A DNA stretch of 34,664 bases from Micromonospora sp. CPCC 205371 (GTDB lineage Bacteria > Actinomycetota > Actinomycetes > Mycobacteriales > Micromonosporaceae), in contig NZ_JAIBNX010000088.1 of the NCBI RefSeq assembly GCF_026130045.1, positions 1-34,664 of the forward strand, read 5' to 3'. Shown piece after piece: positions 13,667 to 28,699 of the stretch; within the stretch, counting starts at the first letter, position 1; every line of letters begins with the position of its first letter. The notes beneath the pieces were generated by a model. It saw only the letters and a program-made list of their open reading frames with translations, was not told where the DNA came from and made no database searches. Made by a program: the position numbers and the translations under genes.

Positions 13667-14434
13667 CTACCGGCCGGTGAAGCGGGCGGGCCGCTTCTCC
13701 AGGAACGCCCGCATCCCCTCGGTCTGGTCCTCGGTGGCGAACAGGGCGTGAAACAGGCGCCGTTCGAAGAGCACGCCTTCCCGCAGTCCGACTTCCTGGG
13801 CCCGGTCCACCGCCTCGCGGGCGGTCATCCCGGCCGGCTTGCCGTAAGAGGCGATCTTCTCGGCCGCGGCCAGCGCCTCCGGCAGCAGCCGGTCGGCGGG
13901 GAACACCCGGGCGACCAGGCCGGCCCGCTCCGCCTCGCCGGCGTCCATCAAGCGTCCGGTGAGGATCATGTCCATCGCCTTGGCCTTGCCGACGAGCCTG
14001 GCCAGGCGCTGCGTGCCGCCGATGCCCGGTATGACGCCGAGCGTGATCTCCGGCTGTCCGAACCGGGCGTTGTCGGCGGCGTAGATGATGTCGCACATCA
14101 TGGCCAGTTCGCAGCCGCCGCCGAGCGCGTAACCGGCCACGGCGGCGATCTTCGGGGTACGCAGCGCCGTGAAGCCGTCCCAGCCGGCGAAGAAGTCTTC
14201 GGTGAACATCTCGACGGAGGACTTCGGTGCCATCTCCCGGATGTCGGCGCCGGCGGCGAAGGCTCGTTCGGAGCCGGTGATGACGAAGCAGCCCACCGTA
14301 GGGTCACGGTCGAGTGGCCGGAGCGCGTCGACCAGTTCGGTCATCAGTTCGGTGTCGAGTGCGTTCAGCACCTCCGGCCGGTGCAGCCGCACGAGGACGA
14401 CCCGGTCGCGCTGTTCGATCTTGATATGGTTCAT
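13667..14434 (-). CDS. Enoyl-CoA hydratase/isomerase (crotonase)
   Basis: A crotonase of 255 residues, normal family length. The oxyanion-hole segment AFAAGADI (58-65) and [10 protein letters not shown] (101-110) are intact. The two hydratase glutamates are present, E109 in GGGCE and E129 in FGQPEITLG, 20 residues apart as in rat mitochondrial enoyl-CoA hydratase, so hydratase chemistry on a 2-enoyl thioester is likely. GAGGGAGA precedes the ATG. It is the last gene of the five-gene operon, 17 nt after the membrane flavoprotein. Its presence suggests a CoA- or carrier-bound unsaturated acyl substrate in the pathway, although no acyl-CoA dehydrogenase is nearby. Confidence 0.92.
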
Positions 14435-14451
14435 GCCGCTCTCCCTCTCGT

Positions 14452-15789
14452 TCAGGAGTCCCAGATGGCGCCGTACGCGGGGATTCCTCGGCATTCCAGG
14501 CCATGGACGACCTGCCAGGTCAACTTCTTGTTCGAGATGCAGATGACTGCCTCGGCCCCGAACGCCACGTACGCGGCGTAGGCCAGTCGGACCATGTCGG
14601 GCTTGCCGTGCTCGGCGGTGTCCCAGACGGTCGCGTCGGGCTGGTCGGCGAGGATCTCGTCCACCAGCGCGTCGCCGTAGGTGGCTCGCGGGCTGCGCGT
14701 CGCCCAGACCAGCCGGGACGGCACTTTCCGGGCCAGCAGGTGCGGGAGCACCGGGCCGATGCCGCTGCCGGTGGCGACGTATACCACCTTGGTGAACAGG
14801 GTCTCGATGTTGGCGACGCCCGCGGTCGTGATGCCCTTGACCCAGACGTGCGTCGGCATATCGTCGATGAACGATCCGGTCCAGTCGCCGGCGCGCGAGA
14901 TGGTGAGCCGGAATCCGGACTCGCCCGGCGTGGGCACGTTGGCGAACGAGTGCCACTCCCACAGCGGGCGGCGGCTGATCGCGGTGGACGAGCCGGCGAA
15001 CGGCGTGACCCCATGGTTGAAGCGGGCCAGCGCCACATGGTTGGAGGGCCGGCTGACCTCGACACGTACTCGACGCAGGCGCAGCCACGGCAGCGCGACG
15101 CTGACGGTGACAACGGCGAGCACCCAGATCTGGGGCGCGGCCAGCGGGCTGCCGGGCTCCGTCCGGACGGACAGCACGGTCTGCGTCCAGAACAGGACCA
15201 GCGCGGTCCAGCCGCCGAACCGGTGCGCCCGCTCGAACCGGTCATGCCGCCTGGCCCGGTAGCCGGGTCGCGCCATCACCACGATGACGACCAGCACGGC
15301 CAGCAGCGCGTACGAGACCGCGAGCAGACCCGCGGGGACCGCTGGGTCATCGCGCAGCGCGGCGACGGTGAGCGTGGCGGTGAGCACGACGAACCACAGC
15401 GTTCCGGCGAGGGCTCCGCCGACGTGCAGCCCGCCGAAGTGGTACACCTTCGCCAGCGTCCAGCGAATCCGCAAGGGCCAGTGCGTGGGCGCCCGGGTGG
15501 CGAGCCAGAACAGCAGGTTGATGACGTACTGCTGGCGGATGAGGATGGCGAGCGCGAAGTTGGCCAGTACCGCGGCGGAGATGGCCGGAAGGTCGACGTG
15601 GTCGCCGGACCACCAACCGCCAGCGGTGAGGGCGTGGCCGAGCAGTGCCAGGTTCGCGATACCGACGAGGGCGACGAGGCGGTTGTGGTGCGTCAGCCGG
15701 GGATGCTTGAGGACGCTCCGGAGCGGTGATGTCGGCGGCGGCAGGGTGAGGTGCTCGACGGCGGGAGCGGCGGGACTGATGACGCTCAT
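14452..15789 (-). CDS. Membrane flavoprotein, TmpA/TmpB-like, with NAD(P)H/FAD reductase tail
   Basis: A protein of 445 residues. The N-terminal half has about six helices (roughly 37-58, 68-95, 122-145, 150-172, 192-210, 219-238). Histidines sit near helix ends, in [10 protein letters not shown] (115-124) and RAHRFGGW (187-194), possible haem or metal ligands. From about 245 a ferredoxin-NADP reductase-like domain follows, with WHSFANVP in place of the usual FAD RxYS motif and the nucleotide loop [13 protein letters not shown] (340-352). The layout matches the fungal TmpA/TmpB transmembrane flavoproteins, in Aspergillus paired with the adenylate-forming enzyme AfeA. Here it overlaps an adenylation gene by 4 nt. 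A membrane redox step on an activated acid is inference. Confidence 0.75.
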
Positions 15790-17342
15790 GCCGCCAACTC
15801 CAGGATGTGCCGCAGCGCCGCCTTGTCGATCTTTCCGCGGCTGGTCTCGGGCAGGTCGGGCAGCGGGTACACGGCCGCCGGGACGCAGTAGTAGGGCAGG
15901 GCGGAGGCGACGGCCTGCTTGGCCGTCTCCGGGTCGACGTGGCCGGGCGCGACGAAGGAGACGAGGCTGCGGTCGTCGAGCTTCAGCGTGACCGCCCGTC
16001 GGCAGCCGGGTACCGACTCGAGGATGGCCGATACCGAATCCAGCTCCACGCGGAATCCGCGAACCTTGACCTGGTCGTCCGTGCGGCCGAGGTGCTCCAG
16101 TTGGCCGTCCGGGGTCCAGCGGCCGAGGTCTCGGGTGCGGAACATCAGCCGGTCGCCGCCGAGGAACGGGTCCGGCACGTACCGGTCCGCGGTCAGTGCC
16201 GCGTCGCCCAGGTATCCGGCGGAGACGCAGTCTCCGCCGGCCCACATCTCGCCGGTGGCGCCGATGGGGCATGGACGTCCGGTCGGGTCGAGGATGTACA
16301 CGGTGTTGTTGGGTGTGGGCCGCCCGATGGTGAGCGGGGCGGCGGGGTCGTGGCGGTGCATGGTGTTCACGATGGTGGTCTCGGTGGGGCCGCACGCGTT
16401 GTAGAAGGCGCACCGGCGGGCCCACCGGTCGGCCAGCGGTCGTGGGCAGGGTTCGCCGGCGACCGCCACCACCTTCACCGACTCGCACCCGTCGGGGTCG
16501 ATACCACTGAGGACGGTCGGGGTGGCGACGATGACGTCGACGCGCTGAGCGGTCGCGGCGATGTCCTGGCCCCGGATGACGAGGGTGGCGCCGTGGCTGA
16601 GGCAGCCGAGGATCTCCCACGCCGCCATGTCGAACGCGACGTTGAGCAGCTGCCCCACCCGCCATCCCGGGCGGATGCCGAGGTCTCCGGGCGCGGTGAG
16701 CAGGATGTTGCAGACGTTACGGTGTGTGACGGCGACGCCGTTGGCGCGTCCGGTGGTGCCGGATGTGAAAAGCACGTAGCAGTTATCGCCGGCGCCGGTC
16801 GGTCGGTGCGGGTCGAGCCTGTCGCCCGAGGCCATCAGGGCGTCGATGGCGATGAGGTGATGGCCGGCCGGCACCGGCACCCGGTCGGCGACGCTGGTCG
16901 TGGTCAGGATGACCCGGGTCGCCGCGGCGTCGATGACGTGGCGGAGGTGGGCGGCTGGGGCGAGGCCCGCGTCCTGCGGCACGTACGCGGCGCCGGCCTT
17001 CAGTACGCCGAGTATCCCGACCAGCATGGGGATACCTCGCCGGACGAACACCGCGACGTTGTCGCCGGGGCGGACGCCGTGGCGGGCCAGCCGTGCGGCG
17101 AGCCGGTTCGCCTGGCGGTCCAGCTCGCCGTAGGTGATGGTCTCGCCGTGGTGTTCGGCGGCGGTGGCCTCCGGGCGGCGGGCCGCCTGCCGCTCGAACG
17201 CGTGATGGACGTGGGTGTCCGGGACCGCCGCGATCGGCCCCTGCCCGAAGAGCTGAAACCTTCGGCGGTCATGGTCTGGCAGGTGGTCCAGCAGGGGGGT
17301 GGACCAGGCCGTCGACGTCCGCTCGATCAGTTGCTGATACAT
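15786..17342 (-). CDS. Stand-alone amino-acid-type adenylation enzyme (NRPS A domain)
   Basis: A protein of 518 residues made only of an adenylate-forming domain. A3 is FTSGTTGRANG (192-202), lacking the usual Lys of PKG; A4 starts FDMAAWE (237-243), A5 is NACGPTETT (315-323), A7 RTRDLGRW (402-409), A8 GRTDDQVKVRGFRVEL (419-434), and A10 SRGKIDKAAL carries the catalytic K504. D238 at the first specificity position predicts an alpha-amino acid. There is no condensation, carrier or thioesterase domain. GGAGGGAC precedes ATG 17342. Its start lies inside the histidine kinase gene (74-nt overlap) and its stop overlaps the membrane flavoprotein start (4 nt), so it is strongly coupled to both. Confidence 0.9.
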   Translation of the reverse strand: MYQQLIERTSTAWSTPLLDHLPDHDRRRFQLFGQGPIAAVPDTHVHHAFERQAARRPEATAAEHHGETITYGELDRQANRLAARLARHGVRPGDNVAVFVRRGIPMLVGILGVLKAGAAYVPQDAGLAPAAHLRHVIDAAATRVILTTTSVADRVPVPAGHHLIAIDALMASGDRLDPHRPTGAGDNCYVLFTSGTTGRANGVAVTHRNVCNILLTAPGDLGIRPGWRVGQLLNVAFDMAAWEILGCLSHGATLVIRGQDIAATAQRVDVIVATPTVLSGIDPDGCESVKVVAVAGEPCPRPLADRWARRCAFYNACGPTETTIVNTMHRHDPAAPLTIGRPTPNNTVYILDPTGRPCPIGATGEMWAGGDCVSAGYLGDAALTADRYVPDPFLGGDRLMFRTRDLGRWTPDGQLEHLGRTDDQVKVRGFRVELDSVSAILESVPGCRRAVTLKLDDRSLVSFVAPGHVDPETAKQAVASALPYYCVPAAVYPLPDLPETSRGKIDKAALRHILELAA

Positions 17343-18315
17343 CGCGGCATGTCCCTCCGATCGATGTGAGTGCGGCCTTCGCCGCACACATACGTCGATG
17401 CTTGTGGAGAGATCTCAGAACGTTCTTAGAACCCGTCCGCCCGGGCGCAGCGGGCAACCGCACGGTGAATCGCGCGCCCCGGCCCGGTTGGCCGGCTGCG
17501 GCGATCGTGCCACCGTGGCTCTCGACGACCTCCCGGGTCAGGGCGAGCCCGACACCGAACCGCTGGCCTGTGCCGGCGGTGCCCCGGGCGAACCGGTCGA
17601 ACATCGTGCGGTGTCCCGCCGGGTCGAAGCCGACGCCGGTGTCCGCGACGACCAGCTCGACCGCTCGACCGTCGTCGACGGTCGCGACGGAGACCGTGAT
17701 CCGGCCGTCGGGTGGCGTGTGCCCGATGGCGTTGTCCACCAGGGCCGAGACCATCCGTCGCAGGGCGGATCCGACCCCGAGCACCACGGGTGGCCCGGCT
17801 CCCACCCGCAGGTCCGCGGACAGCCGTCGCTCGCCCAGGCGCCCCGCCTCCGCCGCGAGCAGGTCGGCGGCGACCGCGGCGAGGTCGACCCGATCGTTCC
17901 CCGCGGTGTCCGAGCGCAGCCGCGCGCCGCGCAACACGTCGTCGAGCACCTCGCCGAGCTCGCGGGTGCCCGCCACCATCCGGCGTAACTCGGTCGCGAG
18001 CGGCTCGGGCAGTTCGTCGGCCCGGCGCAGAAGGAGCTGGCTTCGCACGTGCAGGCGCGTGAGCGGTGCCCGCAGCTCGTGGCTCGCGTCCGCGACGAGT
18101 CGTGAGCGCCGGTCCAGCAGCTCCGCCATCGGATCCAGCACTCGCCGGGCGACGAGGCCGCCGACGGTCACCGCCACCACCAGCCCCACCAGGAGGCAGG
18201 CCACACCACCGGCCAGAAAGACCATCCCGCTGATGGCGGAGGCGACACTCGCCGCCATCACCAGTCGGGCCCGGCGCAGCAGACGCCTTTCCCTGTCCTG
18301 GTTCGCTCCGATCAC
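17269..18315 (-). CDS. Sensor histidine kinase
   Basis: A protein of 348 residues from GTG 18315. Two helices at about 18-35 and 38-57 are joined by almost no loop, so there is no extracellular sensor domain, and no full HAMP is evident. The H box is DASHELRAPLTRL with H79, the N box ALVDNAIGH, G1 ADTGVGFD, the F box MFDRFAR and G2 GVGLALTREVV. After the catalytic domain ends (FTVRLPAAPG) a basic, Cys-containing tail of about 55 residues runs into the adenylation gene. It overlaps the response regulator by GTGA. The stimulus may be membrane-borne or passed by a neighbour; that is inference. Confidence 0.92.
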   Translation of the reverse strand: MIGANQDRERRLLRRARLVMAASVASAISGMVFLAGGVACLLVGLVVAVTVGGLVARRVLDPMAELLDRRSRLVADASHELRAPLTRLHVRSQLLLRRADELPEPLATELRRMVAGTRELGEVLDDVLRGARLRSDTAGNDRVDLAAVAADLLAAEAGRLGERRLSADLRVGAGPPVVLGVGSALRRMVSALVDNAIGHTPPDGRITVSVATVDDGRAVELVVADTGVGFDPAGHRTMFDRFARGTAGTGQRFGVGLALTREVVESHGGTIAAAGQPGRGARFTVRLPAAPGRTGSKNVLRSLHKHRRMCAAKAALTSIGGTCRDVSATDRADVDGLVHPPAGPPARP

Positions 18316-18992
18316 AGGGCGCCGATCTGGTAGCCCAACCCGTGTACGGTGCGCACGATTCCGGGCCCCAGTTTGCGCCGCAAATAGTGCACATAGGTAT
18401 CCACTATGGACTCGGAGTCGGCACCATCGAATACCCGGCCGCGCAATTGGGCACGGCTGTGCACCGCCCGTGGGCGCGTCGCGAGCGAACGGATCAGCGC
18501 GAACTCCCGACCGGACAGGCTGACGAATTCACCGTTGGGTAAATGCGCGCCGCGCAGCGTGATGTCGAGCTGGGCCGCACCCAGCGGAATCAATTCCGCG
18601 TCGTCGACCGCGCGCCGGCTCAACGCCCGCGCCCTGGCCAGCAATTCCGCTAACTCGAACGGCTTGGCGAGGTAGTCGTCGGCGCCGGCGTCGAGCCCGT
18701 CGACCAGGTGAGCGGTGCCGCCGAGTGCGGTCAGCATGAGTATGCGGGCGCTGACGGCCCGCTGGCGCAGGCGTGCGACGACGTCCAGGCCGTCCATTCC
18801 CGGCAGGCCCCGATCCACGACGATCAGCCTGTACTGCCGGGCCAGTCCGAAGTGGAGGCCGCGCTGACCGTCGGGCGCGTGATCCGTGAGATAGCCCTCG
18901 CCGGTGAACAGGTCAACCAACATTTCAGCGAGTTCGCCATCGTCTTCCATGAGGAGAAGCCGCCGCGAGTCGTCGGTTGAACGCTCATCCAC
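18312..18992 (-). CDS. OmpR-family response regulator
   Basis: A protein of 226 residues from GTG 18992. The receiver domain has the acidic pocket in LLLMEDDGE, phospho-acceptor D60 (VVDRGLPG), T88 (MLTALG) and K110 (DYLAKPF). The OmpR/PhoB winged helix follows (LSGREFALIRSLATRP through VDTYVHYLRRKLG to VHGLGYQIG). The frame is open upstream to 19079 but those residues resemble nothing, and a receiver normally starts just before the LLLMEDD strand; the exact start is uncertain because no good ribosome site is seen. It is the first gene of the operon and likely controls it through the upstream AT-rich region. Confidence 0.9.
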   Translation of the reverse strand: MDERSTDDSRRLLLMEDDGELAEMLVDLFTGEGYLTDHAPDGQRGLHFGLARQYRLIVVDRGLPGMDGLDVVARLRQRAVSARILMLTALGGTAHLVDGLDAGADDYLAKPFELAELLARARALSRRAVDDAELIPLGAAQLDITLRGAHLPNGEFVSLSGREFALIRSLATRPRAVHSRAQLRGRVFDGADSESIVDTYVHYLRRKLGPGIVRTVHGLGYQIGAL

Positions 18993-19137: not shown

Positions 19138-22100
19138 TCAGGGGAAGTACTCGAACAGCGAACGGGTGAACGAGACGTTGATCTCTCGCGGCCCGAACCA
19201 GCCCCCCTTGGGATTGGTGGATACCTTGGCTTCCCAGTCGCTGAAGTTGATCAGGCCGTTGTCCTTGATGCCCCAACCGACGGAGTAGCGACCGACCGTG
19301 ATCGACATGCTTTGCTTCTCGCGTCCGCCGGCCTTAGCCGAGTACCCGTAGGTGGGGAACAGCGTGTCGATGCTCGGCTTCGAGTACTTGAGCTGCCCCG
19401 CGACGCCGAACCGGAATTTGCCGTCCTGAATCTTGATCTTGGTGCACTTGTGGCCGTGGCACAACGACCACTCGGAGAAGAGCCGCTTCTTGAGGTGGTC
19501 GATGATGCCGCCACCGCTCGACTTGGCCGCGATGGGTCGCGAGCCGCACTTCGCCGAGCGCTGCGCGCCGTACTGCGCGACGCAGGCGTTCCACTTCTTC
19601 TGTGCCGCCTTCTTCGCGGCCTGCCTGGCCTTCTTCGCCGCCTCCTCGCGGGCCTTCTTGGCGGCGTACTCCCGGGCCAGCCGGCGCGCCTCCGCCGCGA
19701 TCCGGTTGTCGTGCTGGCGCAGGTCACCCGGGTACACCTTCTTCGCCGGCCGCTGCTTGTAGTAGTGGCAGCTGTCGCAGTAGTACGTGGTCGTCTTCTT
19801 GTTGCCGCCGCCGCCCTTCTTCTTGCCCTTCTTCTTCTTGGCCTTGGACGGCTTGTGCACGTAGTCGCCGCTGCAACCGTCGCAGTAGTGCCCACCGGGC
19901 AGCACCGCCCACCGGCCATCCGGGTCGTGCAAGGTGACCGGGGTGTTGTTGGAGTAGGCGTACGCGTTCATCTGCTGCGGGTCGTTGTGGTCGATCACCG
20001 GGTCGACCGACATGAACCGGCCCAGGTCCGGGTCGTACTCCCGAGCACCCAGGTGGGTCAGCCCCGTGCCGTCGACCGTGCCGCCGATGTAGCCCTTCTG
20101 CGTCGGCCAGCTCGCCGGCACCACACCACGCTGCTCACCGAACGGCAGGTACCGCCGCTGCGTCACCGCCAGATCGTCGGCGTCGACCGAGATCTGCGCC
20201 GTGCCCAACCGGTCCTTGGCCTCGAACGACAGGCCGCCACCCGTGGAGCGCACCGCGGTCACGCCGCCCAGCTGGTAAAACCGGGTCGCCGCGACCGCGT
20301 TGGTCGCCTTCGTCAGCTCCAGCTCGGTGCCCTCCATGTAGAGGGTCACGGTGTCGGCGTCCTCGCGGATGAGCCGGTTGCCTTCCGCGTCGTACAGGAA
20401 CTCGGACGTCTTCCCGCCTTCGGTGACGGTGGCCAGGTGGCCCTCGACGTCCCAGGTGAGCGTCTGGCCCGGCCGCGCCGTGGTGTTGCCGGTGGCGTCG
20501 TAGCCGTAGCTGGTGGTCTGGCCGCCGGTCGTCACGCTGCTCAGCGCGTGTGGCCGGGCCGCGCCCGCCGCCGGATACGTGTAGGCGCTGACCGTGCCGG
20601 CACCGCTGGCGGTGTCGTGGTTGGTTTCGGTGAGCCGGTTACCGGTCTTGTCGTAAGTCCACGCCTGCCAGTACGGCGCCGGCCCACCCAGCACAGACGC
20701 GCTCGGACCGGTGGCGCAGTTGTTCGTCGCCGTCCACGCGCTCGACAACCGCTTCAAATAGTCGTACGTGAAACACTGCACGTCCGCACCATCGGTGATC
20801 CTCGTGACATTGCCCGCCGCGTCGTAGCTGTAGTTCACATCGGCCAGACGGGTCGGTGAGACGTTCCGGTCCACGATGGTCCGGCTCAGCTTCCGCGTCG
20901 CGTCGTCGTACATGAACGTCTGCACCATCTGTTTACCGGTAACCGCCTGCAACGTGTACTGCGCCGGCTCCCCGTACGGCGTATACGTCGCTGCCGTGAG
21001 CAACGTGGACAGTCCCGTCTGGGCGGTGACGAGCCGGTCGTGCGTGTCATAGCTGTAGCGCAGCGTCTCCGCCGCGAGGCCGCCCGCCGCCGGGTAGCTG
21101 ATGAGCAGCGGCTGGCCGGTGTCGGTGTACCCGTTGTTGACCCGGTAGCTGCCGGCGAGCGCGCCTTCCGCCGCGGGGATCGACACGGTCGAGCCCAGCG
21201 AGCGGTACATCGGGTCGTAGGCGTTGACCGCGGTGGTGTAGGCGTTGCCATTGACGTATCGGGTGGACGAGGTGAGCTTGCCCTTCACGAGCGTGTCGTA
21301 TGTCCACTCCGAGAGCTTGGTCCCTGACGTCGAGCCCTCGTACATGGCCGCCCGCCGGCCCAACGCGTCGTAGCTGAACGCCAGCGTCTTGTTGCGCGCG
21401 TCGGTCGCGGTGAGCATCTGGTCGGCGTTGTCGAACGTGTACGTCGTGGCGCCCTTGTCCGGGTCCTCGTCCCTGGTCTTCCGGCCACGCAGGTCGTAGC
21501 CGTACCGCCACACGTTGCCGGCCGCGTCCGTGACGCTCGCGATCTCACCGGCACGCGTGTAGGTGTACCTCGTCGCGTCGTACCCGCTGGACGGCGTGGC
21601 TCCGGTGTGCTGCCACAGCTCGGTCGTCTTGCCGGCGGCGTCGCTGATCGTCGTGGTGGCGGTGCCGCCGCTGGGCGGGGTGACAGAGACCCGGTCACCG
21701 CCGTACGTGGTGAGCGTGCGCCACTTCTCGGTGCCGTACGAGCGGAAGATCTCGGTGGTCTCCCGCTCGTCACCGTCGTACACGTACACGGTCTGAGCGG
21801 GCACCGTGTTGTCGGTGACCGTGGCGAGCGTGGTGCCGGCCGTCCCGTCGTTCCAGTAGACGTCGTTGGTCTTGGCCTTCAGGCCGCGCGAGTCGTAGAA
21901 GACGTCGGTGATGACCCGGCCGCCGTCGGGCGCCGGCTTCTGGGTCTGGCGCGGCCGCAGCCTGCCGTCGAAGAACTCGTACTCGGCGTCGTATCCGCCG
22001 TCGTCGCGCACCGCCTCGGTGGTGATGACGCTGGGCGCGCCGGTGCGCACGAGGTACGTGTACTTCTCGTTCGGCGTGGCACCGTCCGCCTTGGACCGGT

Positions 22101-25100
22101 CCGCCAACCACACCGCCGTGAGCTGGCCGAGCGGGTCGTAGGTCAGGTCGGTACGCCGCCCGTTGGCGTCCACGATGGAGGTTTCCTCACCCCACGCCGT
22201 CTCGTACGTGGTGGTCACCACGTGCCCGAGCGGGTTGGTGAGCGTGCTGCTCGTCACCAGGCCGCCCGTCGCCGGCGTGAACCGGGTGCTCGTCTTGCGG
22301 TCCAGCGCGTCGAAGCTGTCCAGCGTGCGGCCGTAGATGTCGTACGTGGCCCGCGTCGACTGCACGTACACCGGTGTGGTGCCCGAGTATGAGGCCAGCT
22401 CCTGGGTCAGCGTCACGTCACCCTTGGTCGGCGCGGCACCGGCGGTGGTCGAGCCGTCGTAGAAGGTACGCACGTCGGAGAGCACATCGTTCGGGCGCGA
22501 CGGCGTCGCCGTACAGGCGACCGAGACCCGCTCCTCACGCGCCGGGAACGCGACCAGCCACTTCGCGGTGTCCCTCGCGGTGTAGGTGGTGCGCACACAC
22601 TCGTCGTCGTCGCTCCTGGACGTGTCGCCCAGGTCGTTGACCTGATTCGGCTGGCCGTACGAGTCGTACGAGGTCTGCTCCTCGGTGCGCCGCCAGCCAC
22701 CCGCCGCGAGCGCGAGGCGGTTGCGCTTCTTCGACACGTCACTGAGGTACGCCCTGGTGGCGCCGCGCGTCGCGGTGGCCGCCGACACCCAGTAGTCGCG
22801 GATCTCCCCGTCGAGCACCGCACCACCCGGCCCGTTGTACGTGACGACCTCACGAGGCTGGCCAGCGAGCGCCTCATGGTCCGTGACCGCCACACCCTCC
22901 GAGTCGGTCACCGACGCGCTACGTGTGCCGCTGCCCAGCTTGTCGCCGTGCATGCCCCGGTGGTACAGCGTCTCGGTCTGGGACCGCACGTCGCCCGAGG
23001 CGCCGTGCGTCACCTTGACCCGCGCGAACCCGCGCCACTCGCTCCACGTCCGGTACTTGGCCGGCGTCAGCTCGTTGTCGTCGTACCGCCACGCGCCGCC
23101 GCCCACGTACTCGTAGTCGGTCTGCTCGATCCCGGCCACACCGGACTGGTCGTCCTGCAACACCTGCACCGCGACGTACTTGTGGAACCAGTCCAGCTTC
23201 GGCGCGGTCGCACCCTCCGGCGTCCAGTAGTGCGGGAAACACCGCTTGGTGTTCGAGTCCGGCGCCGGCACGCTGGCCCGCGCGCACTCCTTGCCCGAGT
23301 AGTTCACCCGCACGTGCCCGCCGAACTCGTCGTACACGTCGGTCAGGCGCCACCGGTACATCGGAGGGATGCCCTCCTCGGCGTCCACCCGGTTCTCCAG
23401 CTGGGTGCCCTCGAAGGTGACCGGCGGCAGCGACGTGCTGCCACCCACCTTGCCGCTGTGCGCGATCGACGACAGCCACAGTTGCTGCGAGGTGCCGTCG
23501 CCGGGCTCCCGGAAGGCGTACCCGAGGGTGTAGGCGTCGACGTCCTTGTAGGTGGTTCCGGACACCAGCACCCTCGTCGTGACCGTCTTGAGCCGCTTGC
23601 GTGACCAGAACGTCGGCGCGAACAGGTCCGTACAGGTCGCGCCCTCGTTGCAGTTCTGGTCGTACGGCACGTCCGGCCAGTTCTTCGCGGTGTCCTTCGT
23701 GATGGTGCCGGTGCCACAGGTGGCGCCCGCGGCGCACCGCTCCTCCACGCCCAAGACCACCTGCGCCGGCGCCGCCGCGGTGTAGATGGTGTTCGAACGC
23801 TGACCGTAGTCGATCCGGCTCAGGTAGCCGCCGCGCACGTACGCGGTATCGTCGGTCGCGACCCGGTTACGGCCGTAGTGGTTCCACTCTTTCGAGTACC
23901 AGTACGACATCGCGTTGCCGTTCGGGTCGACCACATAGTCGAGGTTCCACCGCCACGCCTGCGCGCAGTGTGAGGCGGCGAACGTCGACGCGTGACACGG
24001 CTCGCCGGAGTCGTTGCCGTAGACCGGCGCGGTCCACACCGACTGGGTCACCGCCGCGCCGTCGGTCCAGCCGGGCAGCCGGTGCATGCCGAAGAAGTAC
24101 TGCGTGCCGTCCGTGGTCGTCAGTTTCCAGTACTCGCCGTCGTTGTCCCAGTTGGTCGCGCCGGTCAGGCGCTCCACCTTGGACCCGTCGTCGTTGCGCA
24201 GCTTCCAGGCGCCGCTGGTGGCGTCCTTGACCAGTTCGGTGGTCTTGTCACCCAGGTTCAGGAACGCGTTGTCGGTCTCCCAGCACAGGTCGTACGGCTT
24301 GGTCGTGGTCGTCACATCGTCCGAACAGGACTTGTAGCGCCGCTCGACGAAGCCCTCGGTCAGGTCCCAGCCCTCGCCCACCCAGGAGGTCTGGTTGTTG
24401 GTGGACGCGGTCCGGCCGTCGACCGCGCTGGAGCTGTACCGCAGGTCCAGGTCGGGTGCGGGGCCACCGAACGCCGGCGGCGCGTCCATCTGGTACGACC
24501 AGGAGAAGTCGCCGGCCGAGCCACCGACCTCCCAGGAGGAGGAGCGCGACAGGGCGGTCGCCTTGTAGTCGCCCGCGCTGCCCGACGGGGCCGCCGCCGC
24601 GGCGAGCACGGTGGCCGCGCCAACGGTCACGTCCGCGCTCAGCGTGCCCGAACGGACCTCGTTGGTGGTCGGCAGCGGTGTGGCCGTGCGGCACTCGGCA
24701 CGGTCCGGAGTGGACAGCGCGCACGCCGGCAGCTCGACCAGGCGCAGCCGGGACGCCCAGTCACCGCCGTAGGCGTGCCGGAACGAGGAGTAGTCCACCT
24801 CGACGGACATCCGCGACCGTGCGGGCGTGCCGACGGTGAACAGCAGGCCGGGCACGCCGGCCCTGTCGGCGGCCGCCCGGTCGAGCACCTCCACCTTCGC
24901 AGCACCGTTGCCGCCACCGGCCACCCACACGGGCAGGCCGCCGGCTCGGGCGCGCGTCCCGCGCAGCGGCACCGACGCCTCGCCGGCCGATGGCCACACC
25001 ACCGTGGCCGGCTTCGCCGCTGCCGCCGGCTTGGCCCGCTGGCCGCGCGGCACGAAGTCCTTGACCGGCACCGACTTCTCGTGCTGGATAGCGGGTGCCC

Positions 25101-25197
25101 GCCATGGCGCTGGTTTCGGCTTCGCCTCGGCCGGATCGACGGCCAGCAGGCTGGCCACCATCACCGCCGCGCTAACGGATGCGATCCAACGTCTCAT
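19138..25197 (-). CDS. Secreted RHS/YD-repeat protein
   Basis: A protein of 2019 residues. The ATG at 25197 is preceded by GGGGGAC and starts a Sec signal (IASVSAAVMVASLLAVDPAE, cut near AEA). Around residues 190-600 is an SpvB-like beta-rich region. From about 1000 to 1600 there are many YD repeats (for example YDALGRR, YDLRGRK, YDPLGQL). The RHS core at about 1680-1761 ends with REYDPDLGRFMSVDP and HDPDG. In this family the repeats form a shell around a C-terminal module that may be a toxin; here the last 258 residues are unrecognised (described separately). It follows the LamG gene by 11 nt, and no immunity gene lies before the terminator. Confidence 0.93.
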   Translation of the reverse strand: MRRWIASVSAAVMVASLLAVDPAEAKPKPAPWRAPAIQHEKSVPVKDFVPRGQRAKPAAAAKPATVVWPSAGEASVPLRGTRARAGGLPVWVAGGGNGAAKVEVLDRAAADRAGVPGLLFTVGTPARSRMSVEVDYSSFRHAYGGDWASRLRLVELPACALSTPDRAECRTATPLPTTNEVRSGTLSADVTVGAATVLAAAAAPSGSAGDYKATALSRSSSWEVGGSAGDFSWSYQMDAPPAFGGPAPDLDLRYSSSAVDGRTASTNNQTSWVGEGWDLTEGFVERRYKSCSDDVTTTTKPYDLCWETDNAFLNLGDKTTELVKDATSGAWKLRNDDGSKVERLTGATNWDNDGEYWKLTTTDGTQYFFGMHRLPGWTDGAAVTQSVWTAPVYGNDSGEPCHASTFAASHCAQAWRWNLDYVVDPNGNAMSYWYSKEWNHYGRNRVATDDTAYVRGGYLSRIDYGQRSNTIYTAAAPAQVVLGVEERCAAGATCGTGTITKDTAKNWPDVPYDQNCNEGATCTDLFAPTFWSRKRLKTVTTRVLVSGTTYKDVDAYTLGYAFREPGDGTSQQLWLSSIAHSGKVGGSTSLPPVTFEGTQLENRVDAEEGIPPMYRWRLTDVYDEFGGHVRVNYSGKECARASVPAPDSNTKRCFPHYWTPEGATAPKLDWFHKYVAVQVLQDDQSGVAGIEQTDYEYVGGGAWRYDDNELTPAKYRTWSEWRGFARVKVTHGASGDVRSQTETLYHRGMHGDKLGSGTRSASVTDSEGVAVTDHEALAGQPREVVTYNGPGGAVLDGEIRDYWVSAATATRGATRAYLSDVSKKRNRLALAAGGWRRTEEQTSYDSYGQPNQVNDLGDTSRSDDDECVRTTYTARDTAKWLVAFPAREERVSVACTATPSRPNDVLSDVRTFYDGSTTAGAAPTKGDVTLTQELASYSGTTPVYVQSTRATYDIYGRTLDSFDALDRKTSTRFTPATGGLVTSSTLTNPLGHVVTTTYETAWGEETSIVDANGRRTDLTYDPLGQLTAVWLADRSKADGATPNEKYTYLVRTGAPSVITTEAVRDDGGYDAEYEFFDGRLRPRQTQKPAPDGGRVITDVFYDSRGLKAKTNDVYWNDGTAGTTLATVTDNTVPAQTVYVYDGDERETTEIFRSYGTEKWRTLTTYGGDRVSVTPPSGGTATTTISDAAGKTTELWQHTGATPSSGYDATRYTYTRAGEIASVTDAAGNVWRYGYDLRGRKTRDEDPDKGATTYTFDNADQMLTATDARNKTLAFSYDALGRRAAMYEGSTSGTKLSEWTYDTLVKGKLTSSTRYVNGNAYTTAVNAYDPMYRSLGSTVSIPAAEGALAGSYRVNNGYTDTGQPLLISYPAAGGLAAETLRYSYDTHDRLVTAQTGLSTLLTAATYTPYGEPAQYTLQAVTGKQMVQTFMYDDATRKLSRTIVDRNVSPTRLADVNYSYDAAGNVTRITDGADVQCFTYDYLKRLSSAWTATNNCATGPSASVLGGPAPYWQAWTYDKTGNRLTETNHDTASGAGTVSAYTYPAAGAARPHALSSVTTGGQTTSYGYDATGNTTARPGQTLTWDVEGHLATVTEGGKTSEFLYDAEGNRLIREDADTVTLYMEGTELELTKATNAVAATRFYQLGGVTAVRSTGGGLSFEAKDRLGTAQISVDADDLAVTQRRYLPFGEQRGVVPASWPTQKGYIGGTVDGTGLTHLGAREYDPDLGRFMSVDPVIDHNDPQQMNAYAYSNNTPVTLHDPDGRWAVLPGGHYCDGCSGDYVHKPSKAKKKKGKKKGGGGNKKTTTYYCDSCHYYKQRPAKKVYPGDLRQHDNRIAAEARRLAREYAAKKAREEAAKKARQAAKKAAQKKWNACVAQYGAQRSAKCGSRPIAAKSSGGGIIDHLKKRLFSEWSLCHGHKCTKIKIQDGKFRFGVAGQLKYSKPSIDTLFPTYGYSAKAGGREKQSMSITVGRYSVGWGIKDNGLINFSDWEAKVSTNPKGGWFGPREINVSFTRSLFEYFP
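19141..19914 (-). other. Variable C-terminal module of the RHS protein
   Basis: These 258 residues follow the RHS core sequence HDPDG. They begin with two related Cys knuckles, YCDGC and YCDSC, about 35 residues apart and separated by a Lys/Gly tract. A long Ala/Lys/Arg helix follows (about residues 72-108 of the module). The last 120 residues form a probably beta-rich domain with CHGHKC, FGVAGQLKYSKPSIDTLFP and SITVGRYSVGWGIKDNG, ending FTRSLFEYFP. I recognise no nuclease, deaminase, protease or ADP-ribosyltransferase motif. Toxin function is possible by family analogy only. Confidence 0.6.
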
Positions 25198-25208
25198 CGT
25201 GTCCCCCG

Positions 25209-28200
25209 TCACGCCGCTTGAACAGCGGTGTAGATGTCGAAGATCTCCTGGTCGCTGAGGACTCCCGAGTACGTCCGGACGTCGTCGATGCCGCCCGTCA
25301 GGTACTGCGAGAACGTCACGTTCGACGCCTGGCCACGCCCCAGCAGGACGCTGCCGCCCGCGTTCCACCCGCTGGCGTGGTACGTCTCGTCGACGGCCTG
25401 ACCGTCCACATAGAGCCGCAGCTTGTGCGCCTCCGCGTCGTACACGGCCACCAGGTGCGTCCAGGTGCCGACCGTGGGCACGTCGAACAGGTCCGAGGCC
25501 TCGCGCAGCGCCGCGCCGGAGGCGTCGGTCGACGAGGTACGGATCGACCACAGGTAGGCGGAGTAGTCGGTATCCCACGCCCAGCCGAGGTTGAAGCCGC
25601 CGACCGCGCCACCCAACTGGCTGACCGCGATCCCGTTCTTGCCCAGGGCGTCGGGGCGCACCCAGGCGCTCACCGAGAAGCTGCTGTCGGTACGCACCGC
25701 GGGTGTCGCGGTGGTGAGCACCCCCGTGGTGCCGTTGACGGCCACACCGTTGCCGCTGACGCCGGTGGTGCGGGACACGCCGCTGGCCGACCAGGTCGCG
25801 GTACGCCCACCGACGGCGTCCGCCGCCGTCGTGCCCGAGGTCTCGTCGAGCTTCCAGTGGCTGGTCAGCCGGGGCACCTGCTGCAACTCGCCGGGCAGCA
25901 GGACCCGGTCGTACACCTGGACCCCGTCGAGGTCACCGGGGAAGAAGTCGACGAGCGTGTCGTTGGTCTTCGCCCGCCCGATGGTCAGCGGCCCGGTGCC
26001 GTTCCACGCCGCGCTGTAGCTGGCCGTGCCCTGGAGGGCACCGTTGACGTAGAGCCGGATCTGGCCCGCGTTCTTGTCGTACACACCGGTGAGGTGCACC
26101 CACTCGCCCACCGGTACCGACGACGTCGAGTCGACCGTCACGTAGCTCGGGCGTTCCACGCTGTCGGCCACCGGGAACGACCACCGCCACCGGTCGGTCG
26201 CCGAGAAGTACTGGAGGTAGAAGGCGCTGCGGTGGGTGCCGTCCTGGCTGAGCACCGCGCGGTTACCGGTCTTGCTGGTGATGCGCGCCCAGGCGGAGAC
26301 GGAGAACGACGCCGAGGTGTCCAGCACGGGGCCGGCCGTCTGGGCGTACCCGGTCGTGCCGTCCAGGCGCAGCGCACCACCGGCGACGCCGTCCTCCCAG
26401 GTGGCGCCGCCCGTCACAGTGGCGTGCCGGGCGGCGGCGGTGGAGTCCTCGGCGACCAGGCCGTCGGCGGTCTCGTCGAGCGCCCAGCTTCCGGTCGGGC
26501 CGGACGGGACGTCGGCGTAGAAGACCACGGTCGCCACCGCGGACTTGTTCGACGCCCCGTCCACCGACCGCACGTGCAGCCAGTTGACGAACCGGTCGGG
26601 CGTCACCGACACGGTGACCGAGCCGCCGCGCGTGCCGGGCGTCGCCTTCTTGCTCAGGGCGGTCGAGTCGCCGTTGAGCACGTACTCGTACGAGGCGACG
26701 TCGGTGCCGCCGTTCGCCGACATCGTGACGCTGGAGGAGCGGCCCATCACCGCGTCACCCTCGGCGCCGTCCGGGAACGCGGTCGAGGTGAGCGCCGGGA
26801 TCGGCGGCCTGCTGGTGTCTATCTGGAACTCGCAGAACGAGCTCCACGCGCTGCTGTCGGTGCCGTCGGTCGCGCGTACCCGCCACTTGGCGACCGCGCC
26901 GTTGGTGAACGCGCCGGACGGGATCGCCTTCGCCACCGTCGTCGGTTTCTTACCGGCCACCGACGCCGAGGTCCACTCCCCCACCGGCGCGGTGCCGTCG
27001 ACCTTCCACCACTGGAAGTGCGCCTTCACCGCGTTGTCCGCGTCGCTGACCGAGGCCCGCAGGGTCGGCGTGGCGGTGCCGATGACCAGCCGGCCGGAAC
27101 CGGTGGTGCAGGTCGGGGAGCCGTCGGTGGTCAGGTTGGTCGGCTTGCCCGGCACCGTGTTGTACACGATCGTGATGGACGGGTTGTTGCGGAACCGCTT
27201 CCACGAGTGCGGGTCCCGGTTGGACTCCGCGGTCGCCGAGGCGCGCAGCCCCTGCGTGATCGAGCTCCAGCCGTTCTTGGCCGCCTTCGCCACGTGCCCG
27301 GTCACGGTGAACTCCGCACCGCCGGCCGGGCAACTCGACGGCGACCAGCCCTTGGCGAAGCTCTTCGCGGTCAGCTTCGTGATCCAGCTCGGCTGCTTGC
27401 TCCACGTGGTGGCCGAGGAGACCCCGCCGGTCTCCCAGACCTGCACCTCGCGGGCGGTGCACGAGTACGACCACACCTCGAACGTCTGCAGTGTCGCCTT
27501 GAGGATGTGCTTGCCCCTCACGCCCGTGGTGTCGAAGCGGAAGAACGAGCGCGTCTTCTTGCCGTCCAGGGCGTCGTAACCGACGCGCGCCTCGTCCTCG
27601 GCGTCGTTGGCGCCGTTCCAGAACGAGGTCGTCGGCAGGTTGCTCCACACCTGCGTCCACGCGGTACGTGAACCCGACCACGACGGGTCGATGTAGACCG
27701 GGTACCTCGTGCGGGCACCGGTCAGCAGTGACCTGTCGGGGATCAGCGCGAGTTCGCCGGCGCTGAGGCCGACCCGCATCGCGCGGACCGTGCCGGCCGG
27801 CTTCAGGGCGGCTCTGCCGGCCACACCCGCCGACGAGTCCCACATGTACGGGGCGGGCGCCTCGAACACCGCGGTGCCGCTCGGGTCGGTGGCCGCCAGC
27901 GCGCCGTTCGCCGCGGCCCGCACGCTCAGGCCCTTGGCCGCCGTACGCAGCCGCACCCGGGACAGCGCCGGGTTGGTCGCCGCCTGTGCCGACTTGACCA
28001 CGAGCAGCTGCGAGAAGCCCTCCACGGCGGCGCGGACTGTCAGGTCGACACCGGGAAGTACCTCCGGATAGGTGGCGGTGTCGCCGCTGAGTATCGGCTC
28101 AGGCAGCCGCCCCGGCCAGCCCAGCACCAGCTCGCGGCCGTCGCGCCGCAGGCGTACCAGAGGCTCCGAACCGCCCCCGGAGAAGGCCATGTCCAGCGTG

Positions 28201-28550
28201 GTCGCGCCCGGAGCGACCATTCCGTCAGCGGTCTTGCGCAGCGTGGTGTCGACCGCCGTCCAGGCGGCGCCCCGCCGCACCCGCACGGGGATGACCGACT
28301 GCTCCAGGGTGAACGAACCGTTCGGGTTCGCGAACACCTGCTGCCGCTCGGTCCGCAAGGCGGTGGCCTCGACCCGCCGGCCCGACGCCAGGGCGGCGGC
28401 GCGGGCCTCGGCCTCGCTCACCACCCGCGGCGCCGGCTCGGCGACCGCTGTCTGCGCGGGGGCCACCACGACCGCGGACGCCGCCACGATCATGCCCGCG
28501 ATGAACCAACTCCGGGTACGCATGATCAGCAGAATCCGGGCGGACGCCAT
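25209..28550 (-). CDS. Secreted LamG/DNRLRE domain protein
   Basis: A protein of about 1113 residues. A Sec signal is plain (WFIAGMIVAASAVVVAPAQT, then AVAEP); the start may be ATG 28550, GTG 28553 or ATG 28523, none with a strong ribosome site. After a 250-residue N-terminal region, a DNRLRE-like beta domain is at about 283-455 (YPVYIDPSWSG, SFFRFDTTGV). Fibronectin-like stretches precede two LamG jelly-roll domains at about 687-885 and 890-1105 (GSWALDETADG and SHWKLDETSGT mark their starts). Such proteins are commonly encoded next to RHS proteins in actinomycetes and may bind surface polymers. It is the first gene of the operon with the RHS protein. Confidence 0.9.
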   Translation of the reverse strand: MASARILLIMRTRSWFIAGMIVAASAVVVAPAQTAVAEPAPRVVSEAEARAAALASGRRVEATALRTERQQVFANPNGSFTLEQSVIPVRVRRGAAWTAVDTTLRKTADGMVAPGATTLDMAFSGGGSEPLVRLRRDGRELVLGWPGRLPEPILSGDTATYPEVLPGVDLTVRAAVEGFSQLLVVKSAQAATNPALSRVRLRTAAKGLSVRAAANGALAATDPSGTAVFEAPAPYMWDSSAGVAGRAALKPAGTVRAMRVGLSAGELALIPDRSLLTGARTRYPVYIDPSWSGSRTAWTQVWSNLPTTSFWNGANDAEDEARVGYDALDGKKTRSFFRFDTTGVRGKHILKATLQTFEVWSYSCTAREVQVWETGGVSSATTWSKQPSWITKLTAKSFAKGWSPSSCPAGGAEFTVTGHVAKAAKNGWSSITQGLRASATAESNRDPHSWKRFRNNPSITIVYNTVPGKPTNLTTDGSPTCTTGSGRLVIGTATPTLRASVSDADNAVKAHFQWWKVDGTAPVGEWTSASVAGKKPTTVAKAIPSGAFTNGAVAKWRVRATDGTDSSAWSSFCEFQIDTSRPPIPALTSTAFPDGAEGDAVMGRSSSVTMSANGGTDVASYEYVLNGDSTALSKKATPGTRGGSVTVSVTPDRFVNWLHVRSVDGASNKSAVATVVFYADVPSGPTGSWALDETADGLVAEDSTAAARHATVTGGATWEDGVAGGALRLDGTTGYAQTAGPVLDTSASFSVSAWARITSKTGNRAVLSQDGTHRSAFYLQYFSATDRWRWSFPVADSVERPSYVTVDSTSSVPVGEWVHLTGVYDKNAGQIRLYVNGALQGTASYSAAWNGTGPLTIGRAKTNDTLVDFFPGDLDGVQVYDRVLLPGELQQVPRLTSHWKLDETSGTTAADAVGGRTATWSASGVSRTTGVSGNGVAVNGTTGVLTTATPAVRTDSSFSVSAWVRPDALGKNGIAVSQLGGAVGGFNLGWAWDTDYSAYLWSIRTSSTDASGAALREASDLFDVPTVGTWTHLVAVYDAEAHKLRLYVDGQAVDETYHASGWNAGGSVLLGRGQASNVTFSQYLTGGIDDVRTYSGVLSDQEIFDIYTAVQAA

Positions 28551-28699
28551 CACGCCGCCACCGCGCCGCCACCGTCAAACCTGCCTTGACCTGCGAGAAG
28601 TCCGCCATTTACCGGCCGTTCAGCCCTCGCTCACACAGGCACCGAGATGGCACTCTTGATGGCCGGGAACCGATCGGAGGCGTCAACGGTGTACCTCGC

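Follow-up and report, generated by a model that had tools for sequence, protein, structure and literature searches.

We analyzed a 34,664-nucleotide stretch of DNA from Micromonospora sp. CPCC 205371 (hereafter, the window), which carries five minus-strand genes in the order regulator, kinase, adenylation enzyme (A), membrane flavoprotein (Tmp) and enoyl-CoA hydratase/crotonase (ECH). The first three junctions are overlaps of 4, 74 and 4 nt, whereas 17 nt separate the last two genes (Table 1). On rechecking, the five genes and these spacings agreed exactly with a preliminary description of the locus.

Table 1. Features of the five-gene locus in the window
Feature	Position	Strand	Basis
Response regulator gene, OmpR-type, P0001	18312..18992	minus	Pfam Response_reg and Trans_reg_C above cut-off
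Sensor histidine kinase gene, P0002	17269..18315	minus	HisKA and HATPase_c above cut-off
Direct repeat TCTAAGA-n4-TCTGAGA, 11-bp period, candidate response-regulator box upstream of A	17413..17430	minus	Conserved blocks
Stand-alone NRPS-type adenylation enzyme (A), P0003	15786..17342	minus	TIGR01733 above cut-off
Membrane flavoprotein (Tmp, predicted TmpA/TmpB-type oxidoreductase), P0004	14452..15789	minus	GSGIGP, remote ferric-reductase homology
Enoyl-CoA hydratase/crotonase (ECH), P0005	13667..14434	minus	PRK05862 barely above cut-off

The 74-nt overlap between the kinase and A genes exists because the kinase frame of CPCC 205371 and its congener continues through a conserved promoter-like box, so that the final ~50 codons of P0002 traverse it. 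At locus L004, sequence comparison places the end of the kinase frame ahead of this box. Thus, the five genes may form two transcription units.

No carrier, condensation or thioesterase parts were found in the five proteins (Pfam and NCBIfam) or in the ten other frames of the window. We therefore rejected a standard, direct NRPS cluster, as the preliminary description had also done.

Conservation of the cassette and its regulators

Our main comparison set, drawn from Actinobacteria and Proteobacteria, comprised 53 related loci. An adjacent A gene is present in 51 of them, and an adjacent ECH gene in 49. In the window and in all 51 measurable loci of this set, the stop of A and the start of Tmp share a 4-nt overlap (ATGA or GTGA). 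The pairwise identities of A, Tmp and ECH also correlate over 46 loci (Pearson 0.92, 0.80 and 0.76). Since adjacency is kept across phyla, the three enzymes are not together by chance, and the architecture of the cassette is well supported. A, Tmp and ECH constitute a fixed unit in scattered bacteria and probably serve to activate and modify an amino acid at the membrane.

In three Micromonosporaceae genomes, A and Tmp form a single open reading frame of 1000-1056 residues, stop to stop (L096, L097 and L140). Long open frames had raised the suspicion of a widespread A-Tmp fusion, which held only for L063/L096, L064/L097 and L065/L140. In CPCC 205371 the two are separate genes and not one polypeptide. 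Micromonosporaceae also yielded six divergent Tmp genes that stand alone, with no A gene accompanying them.

The preliminary description treated the sensor kinase and regulator as belonging to the operon. A linked two-component system is indeed present, but it is not part of the core: the kinase pair lies beside 7 of the 16 cassettes in the Micromonosporaceae family set and is absent from the other 9 (L093 ends at a contig end). Adjacency across phyla holds for the three enzymes, whereas the five-gene orthologous set was seen only in Micromonosporaceae; elsewhere the unit is three genes. Regulator orthologues that are 63-87% identical adjoin the cassette in other Micromonosporaceae loci.

The candidate box upstream of A contains blocks of 8 and 7 nt that are invariant in 6/6 aligned loci, and it has a single match across the 9.36-Mb genome when at most one mismatch is allowed. 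The box of this first locus group is not retained as such in the second. Given that six genomes share the repeat preceding A and that CPCC 205371 has a single match to it, we conclude that the two-component system regulates the cassette in a lineage-specific way; its response regulator would bind this box. As judged by hydropathy, P0002 has two hydrophobic stretches without a gap between them, in contrast to its counterparts at L002, L006 and L047; we claim a missing sensor loop only for kinases whose H-box was located by regular expression (6 of 14).

The three enzymes and their known relatives

P0003 scored 349.4 bits against TIGR01733 (cut-off 317.4), while, among the matches listed, the fatty-acid and benzoate CoA-ligase models scored under their own cut-offs. 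Its pocket code is DMWVAAAIVK. It carries D238, W242 and K504, which we take, by PheA numbering, to be the alpha-amino Asp, the Trp and the C-terminal Lys; among the 50 A sequences from which pocket residues were extracted, these are conserved in 49, 50 and 50, respectively. The commonest code across the A family is DMWIAAAIVK. This is the code of Sare0718 from Salinispora arenicola, which had been predicted to specify Val and activated L-alanine in vitro, in a panel limited to the 20 proteinogenic amino acids (PMC3360062). Our literature search returned the code string in one paper. The substrate of A is most likely a small amino acid, with L-alanine favoured, an assignment that the pocket comparison reasonably supports.

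The resemblance to Sare0718 extends to its locus (sare0716-0719), where ECH and a hypothetical protein follow in the same order as in the window; a phosphopantetheinyl transferase (PPTase) gene stands in place of the kinase and regulator, and the authors of that study did not assign an identity to the hypothetical protein (PMC3360062). The same order, PPTase-A-Tmp-ECH, occurs at L098 (PPTase by Pfam), and relatives of this transferase are found at L099 and L101. The layout was called possibly undescribed in the preliminary description. This does not apply to its parts: a 2010 study already placed bacterial stand-alone A domains within the NPS12 clade (PMC2823734), and an assay of one such domain followed in 2012 (PMC3360062). 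In contrast, our literature search, which covered titles and abstract openings, found no treatment of bacterial A-Tmp-ECH as one system, and no assay of a Tmp or ECH from this cassette family.

Neither Pfam (E 0.1) nor NCBIfam (E 0.001) yielded a match for P0004. The NAD(P)H-binding motif GSGIGP is invariant in all 53 Tmp sequences, and in P0004 it is preceded by hydrophobic segments (hydropathy). By eye, the stretch comparable to the fungal FAD motif RLHFD / RxYS reads EWHSFAN, with no clear RxYS. Searching with the Tmp alignment against PDB profiles gave only two chance-level matches (E 0.32).

A remote relationship to the ferric reductase/NADPH oxidase superfamily was observed. P0004 itself did not match PF01794 up to E 5, but ten of the 53 family members did (best E 0.0013), and a Tmp profile built on the 6 of 12 loci passing a motif filter aligned colinearly with ferric reductase; the 269 aligned columns begin in the later membrane helices and reach the NAD domain (hhalign probability only 27%). 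Unlike that superfamily, the outer haem histidines are not conserved. Alignment positions 131 and 202 are never His, and position 203 is His in 7/53; by the spacing of true ferric reductases, these positions correspond to the second His in either pair of haem ligands. The membrane domain of Tmp appears to retain only the cytoplasmic-side haem ligands.

P0005 scored 398.7 bits against PRK05862 (cut-off 396). E109 and E129, presumably the two catalytic Glu residues by reference to rat ECH, are invariant in all 50 cassette ECHs. In the tree, 49 of these 50 cluster together (support 92/87); the exception is L041, where an unrelated crotonase occupies the same slot. In a second Pseudomonas set, the adjacent ECH is missing from 6 of 15 loci, indicating that a neighbouring ECH is not always needed.

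We then compared the cassette with fungal systems. In TmpB, an NRPS-type A domain and a TmpA-like oxidoreductase are joined in one polypeptide, and an enoyl-CoA hydratase gene, described for tmpB only, neighbours its gene in Aspergilli (PMC4804170). Fungal TmpB, TmpL and ChNPS12 follow the same succession as the bacterial proteins: an NRPS-type A domain, then a membrane domain, then an FAD/NAD(P) domain containing GSGIGP. The crotonase beside the window's pair resembles the tmpB neighbour. TmpB (989 aa) and TmpL (1025 aa) are similar in length to the three bacterial fusions. In contrast to the fungal proteins, the window and, apart from these three, the other bacterial loci seen carry two overlapping genes, and the window's cassette is under putative two-component control. 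The putative homology between Tmp and TmpA/TmpB is based on shared architecture, on the presence of the published GSGIGP motif and on the remote similarity to ferric reductases. Because the A-Tmp fusions share the TmpB/TmpL/NPS12 layout and Aspergillus tmpB has an enoyl-CoA hydratase neighbour, the cassette looks like a bacterial, split form of this fungal system together with its hydratase.

The preliminary description had correctly recognized both a kinship with the Aspergillus Tmp system and the type of the membrane flavoprotein, but took AfeA, said to work with TmpB, as the counterpart of A. In A. nidulans, AfeA partners TmpA, and TmpB acts in a separate pathway (PMC4804170). The AfeA-TmpA pair does resemble the window in that an acyl-activating enzyme adjoins a TmpA-type flavoprotein; the literature consulted mentions no crotonase beside afeA-tmpA. 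However, AfeA is coumarate-ligase-like, and we rejected it as being of the wrong ligase class: P0003 scores as an NRPS-type A, so A and Tmp correspond to a split TmpB.

A proposed carrier-free pathway

Our model, to which we assign a probability of roughly 60%, is that A, Tmp and ECH form a carrier-free alanine cassette of split TmpB type, controlled through the box in the Micromonosporaceae lineage. A would adenylate a small amino acid, L-alanine being the likeliest, and the activated residue would pass directly to Tmp, perhaps as a CoA thioester, without a carrier protein. Tmp would combine an FNR-type FAD/NAD(P)H domain with a membrane domain resembling that of ferric reductases and, driven by NAD(P)H, perform a redox step on this residue. 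The crotonase could then hydrate or rearrange the resulting unsaturated thioester, yielding a small product that is probably a signal or a protective metabolite. In the lineage of CPCC 205371, the two-component system would govern the cassette via the box ahead of A. Here we infer the CoA acceptor, the haem, the redox direction, the product, the signalling role and the recognition of the box by the response regulator.

A different, rather unlikely, explanation is that Tmp acts chiefly as a membrane-bound NAD(P)H oxidase or reductase while A and ECH supply or remove a small ligand, so that the system as a whole manages reactive oxygen and makes no signal. The remote ferric-reductase homology fits this, as does the altered ROS homeostasis seen in Alternaria brassicicola and Aspergillus fumigatus when tmpL is mutated (PMC2766074), but conidia of the A. 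nidulans tmpB mutant were reported not to be sensitive to H2O2 or menadione (PMC4804170), and Tmp does not conserve the second His in either haem-ligand pair of true ferric reductases. With two catalase queries (E 1e-4; Pfam confirmation for L034 and L021), a catalase frame was found within the retrieved stretch at 26 of 95 loci, namely 24 from Pseudomonas (one locus counted twice), L021 and L046, and no match was obtained in the remaining 69, including the window. Catalase adjacency was thus rejected as a general rule.

Less plausible still is a reductive route, in which Tmp would reduce alanyl-AMP or an alanyl thioester to an amino aldehyde whose condensation gives pyrazine-type volatiles, with the crotonase handling a side product. 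This agrees with the invariant NAD(P)H-binding motif and requires no carrier protein, but it leaves a hydratase that is catalytically intact, as judged by its residues, without a clear job, and the carboxylate reductases known to us differ in using a carrier and a different reductase. Least probable is that A loads the carrier of an NRPS or PKS encoded elsewhere in the genome while Tmp and ECH act as tailoring enzymes on the loaded residue: stand-alone A domains working in trans are known and a PPTase gene adjoins both sare0718 and the L098 cassette, but such genes occur at just 3 of 95 loci, a carrier motif at 0 of 90 (regular expression scan without a positive control), and, beyond the core, regulators and catalase, the gene groups found in at least three genera are generic and variably placed, as judged by eye.

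An extension of the carrier-free alanine model, which we offer only tentatively, is that bacteria and fungi have this system in common. Within an A-Tmp complex, the activated alanine would reach Tmp, a single-haem flavohaem membrane enzyme; ECH would complete the reaction, and the released product would act as a signal in development or stress, its level being sensed by the linked kinase in Micromonosporaceae.

Excerpts of the TmpB/TmpL literature surveyed describe an influence of this fungal pathway on spore formation and redox balance, and in them we found no identification of its product. Our analysis relates both Sare0718, an orphan among bacterial enzymes, and a membrane protein family lacking a name to the fungal system. 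With a compact three-gene bacterial version, natural fusions and a relative whose substrate has been measured, the cassette offers a tractable route to the chemistry of TmpB/TmpL.

A conserved three-gene cassette

The five-gene layout on the minus strand that the preliminary description had reported was borne out in the sequence, in both coordinates and spacings. P0001 and P0002 are an OmpR-type regulator/kinase pair, the third protein (P0003, hereafter A) is an NRPS-type adenylation enzyme and the fifth (P0005, ECH) is an enoyl-CoA hydratase. P0004, the membrane flavoprotein (Tmp), is encoded once in the genome and matched no Pfam family at E 0.1 and no NCBIfam family at E 0.001.

With the membrane protein as query, a search of genomes from bacteria and archaea yielded a main set of 53 loci, whose hosts include Micromonospora, Streptomyces, Glycomyces, Streptosporangium, Longimycelium, Pseudomonas, Paraburkholderia and Endozoicomonas. 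By scripted scoring, a same-strand A gene adjoins Tmp in 51/53 loci; the exceptions are L026, a locus that starts 199 nt before Tmp, and L053, which has an incomplete Tmp match with A upstream of it. ECH stands immediately 3' of Tmp in 49/53, being absent in L023, L026, L037 and L046. When neighbouring frames of at least 100 residues were clustered, the frames of the core genes, along with their antisense shadows, were present in 48-56 loci, and the next groups spanning at least three genera were catalases (14 loci), regulators (13) and kinases (12); the remaining groups in at least three genera, judged by eye, are small and generic and vary in position (ABC ATPases, for example).

Twenty Micromonosporaceae stretches were chosen from 38 long matches in 300 genomes of the family. 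A occurs in 16 of them and ECH in 16; the remaining four hold divergent Tmp genes that stand alone. Eight stretches duplicate main-set loci, and eight cassettes are new. In a second Pseudomonas set (15 of 17 matches, one duplicating a main-set locus) A was found in 15/15 and ECH in 9/15, and in three new Pseudomonadota loci A in 3/3 and ECH in 2/3. L127, L128, L130, L131, L132 and L133, all from Pseudomonas, keep A and Tmp without an adjoining ECH. The A-Tmp-ECH cassette is real, and its occurrence is low and patchy, a wide but thin spread: 3/396 genomes in Actinomycetota (single-protein query), 17/199 in Pseudomonas and 4/398 in Pseudomonadota, each count including the centre genome.

The A stop and Tmp start overlap by 4 nt in all 51 measurable main-set loci and in 14/16 family-set cassettes, the other two being fused; the second Pseudomonas set has this overlap in 8/15, and its junction is variable. 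One genus of the window's family has A and Tmp fused into a single open frame in three genomes (1016, 1000 and 1056 residues), joined through a proline-rich linker; in L080, from a fourth genome of this genus that was positive, the two are split. Pairwise identities across 46 loci correlate (Pearson) at 0.92 for Tmp-A, 0.80 for ECH-A and 0.76 for Tmp-ECH; because shared ancestry of the hosts adds to these values, they indicate joint inheritance, not interaction.

Features of the three proteins

GSGIGP is present in 53/53 bacterial Tmp members. Ten of the 53 weakly matched the ferric reductase family (best E 0.0013), and P0004 gave no match to it up to E 5. A comparison of the Tmp profile with six actinobacterial ferric reductases reached a score of 36.7 (E 0.0007, probability 27%) along 269 colinear columns; 20 column shuffles gave 15.1-21.7, and the reversed profile gave 19.5. 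H117, H122, H182 and H189 are invariant (53/53), His occurs at positions 131 and 202 in 0/53 and at 203 in 7/53, and this pattern suggests a single haem on the cytoplasmic side.

With PheA numbering, the pocket code of A reads DMW(I/V)AA(A/G/C/S)I(V/I)K in 49/50 sequences; in L037, Gly replaces the first Asp. Sare0718, a Salinispora arenicola A enzyme, activates L-Ala in vitro, and the study that reports this warns that a different substrate may be used in vivo; the adjoining genes encode an enoyl-CoA hydratase, a hypothetical protein and a PPTase (PMC3360062). The gene order on a 5.18-Mb chromosome of the family set (L098) is PPTase-A-Tmp-ECH, so the hypothetical neighbour of Sare0718 is most likely Tmp. 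Across 95 loci, further relatives of this PPTase turned up in L099 and L101 alone.

In a tree of 50 cassette ECHs and 24 paralogues from five genomes, 49/50 cassette members form one group, whose nearest outgroup is a single Pseudomonas paralogue; the group's support of 92/87 falls short of the starred threshold. Both catalytic Glu are invariant in cassette ECH. An unrelated crotonase occupies the slot in Kibdelosporangium (L041), which argues that a crotonase would be needed at that place.

Regulation and gene surroundings

Co-occurrence, which the initial proposal had named as a check, holds for A, Tmp and ECH in most of the main set and not for the kinase pair: among the loci scanned, regulator and kinase orthologues lie beside the cassette only in Micromonosporaceae. 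They are upstream on the same strand in a first group (L002, L004, L006, L047, L091 and the window), and downstream and convergent in a second (L030, L033, L042, L046, L053, L088, and L102 with the regulator only). The pair accompanies 7/16 family-set cassettes; L021 and L029 carry a different two-component pair.

Loci of the first group share a direct repeat, TCTAAGA-n4-TCTGAGA, that starts 83-92 nt upstream of the beginning of A and has blocks of 8 and 7 nt that are invariant in the six loci. It is the sole match in the window's genome at up to one mismatch and, since so long a pattern is seldom expected by chance, is consistent with a single target, though not proof of one. A related element was seen by eye in the second group. 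In the gammaproteobacterial L021 and L029, a repeat of the GTGATA/GTGAGA type with an 11-bp period was seen by eye just upstream of A; its layout resembles that of the window's repeat. The kinases of the window and a congener have two hydrophobic stretches without a gap; a gap is present in L002, L006 and L047.

Coordinates of frames in the window and in loci with Tmp relatives
Locus	Positions	Source	Observation
Window	19138-25578		RHS-repeat frame, 2146 aa, directly upstream of regulator gene, same strand
Window	25209-28553		LamG-like domains (PF13385) in a frame of 1114 aa, adjoins RHS gene
L043	5296-6150	alphaproteobacterial	divergent gene upstream of A, similar-looking to that of L178 (by eye); possibly a local regulator
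L178	5352-6170	alphaproteobacterial	as L043
L046	13723-15180	Micromonospora haikouensis	KatA-type catalase frame ~4 kb from cassette
L089	7270-9996		divergent lone Tmp adjoining a PLP-dependent aminotransferase-fold enzyme (resembles alpha-oxoamine synthase, by eye) and ABC transporter; partner set unlike A/ECH
L091	7709-9069	congener (G425)	Tmp match broken across two frames near end; frameshift or sequencing error
L171	9070-10245	Pantoea plasmid	lone Tmp relative; no A or ECH annotated nearby; siderophore genes some kilobases away
L172	6475-9078	cyanobacterial plasmid	distant Tmp relative, annotated hypothetical, then HlyD-type membrane fusion protein gene
L173	8917-11632	cyanobacterial plasmid	as L172

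Relation to the fungal proteins and possible function

In the fungal proteins TmpB, TmpL and ChNPS12, an A domain is fused to a TmpA-like membrane flavoprotein. Bushley and Turgeon describe ChNPS12 as an A domain joined to a membrane domain that resembles ferric reductases, and assign to its subfamily A domains that stand alone in the bacteria Hahella and Salinispora (PMC2823734). A regular expression, run without a positive control, found no carrier motif in 90 loci, some of which overlap. Most likely, A would make alanyl-AMP and hand it over to Tmp, possibly via CoA; Tmp would carry out a redox step that depends on NAD(P)H and flavin, and ECH would add water to its product or rearrange it.

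A signalling role for the cassette product, borrowed from A. nidulans, would hold by analogy. Its main rival is a redox role, for which TmpL offers a precedent and to which the catalase neighbours in Pseudomonas also point: in 7/9 loci examined there (not L131 or L133), the cassette lies between a sigma-factor/anti-sigma region (by eye) and a catalase gene.

The layout had been called undescribed; its pieces are already known separately, and our literature searches found no account joining them. The proposed kinship with the Aspergillus system survives in modified form. On the basis of architecture, the published GSGIGP motif and remote ferric-reductase similarity, the cassette is best described as a split bacterial version of the fungal system made up of TmpB/TmpL/NPS12 and a crotonase, and its two-component control in the window's genome is lineage-specific.
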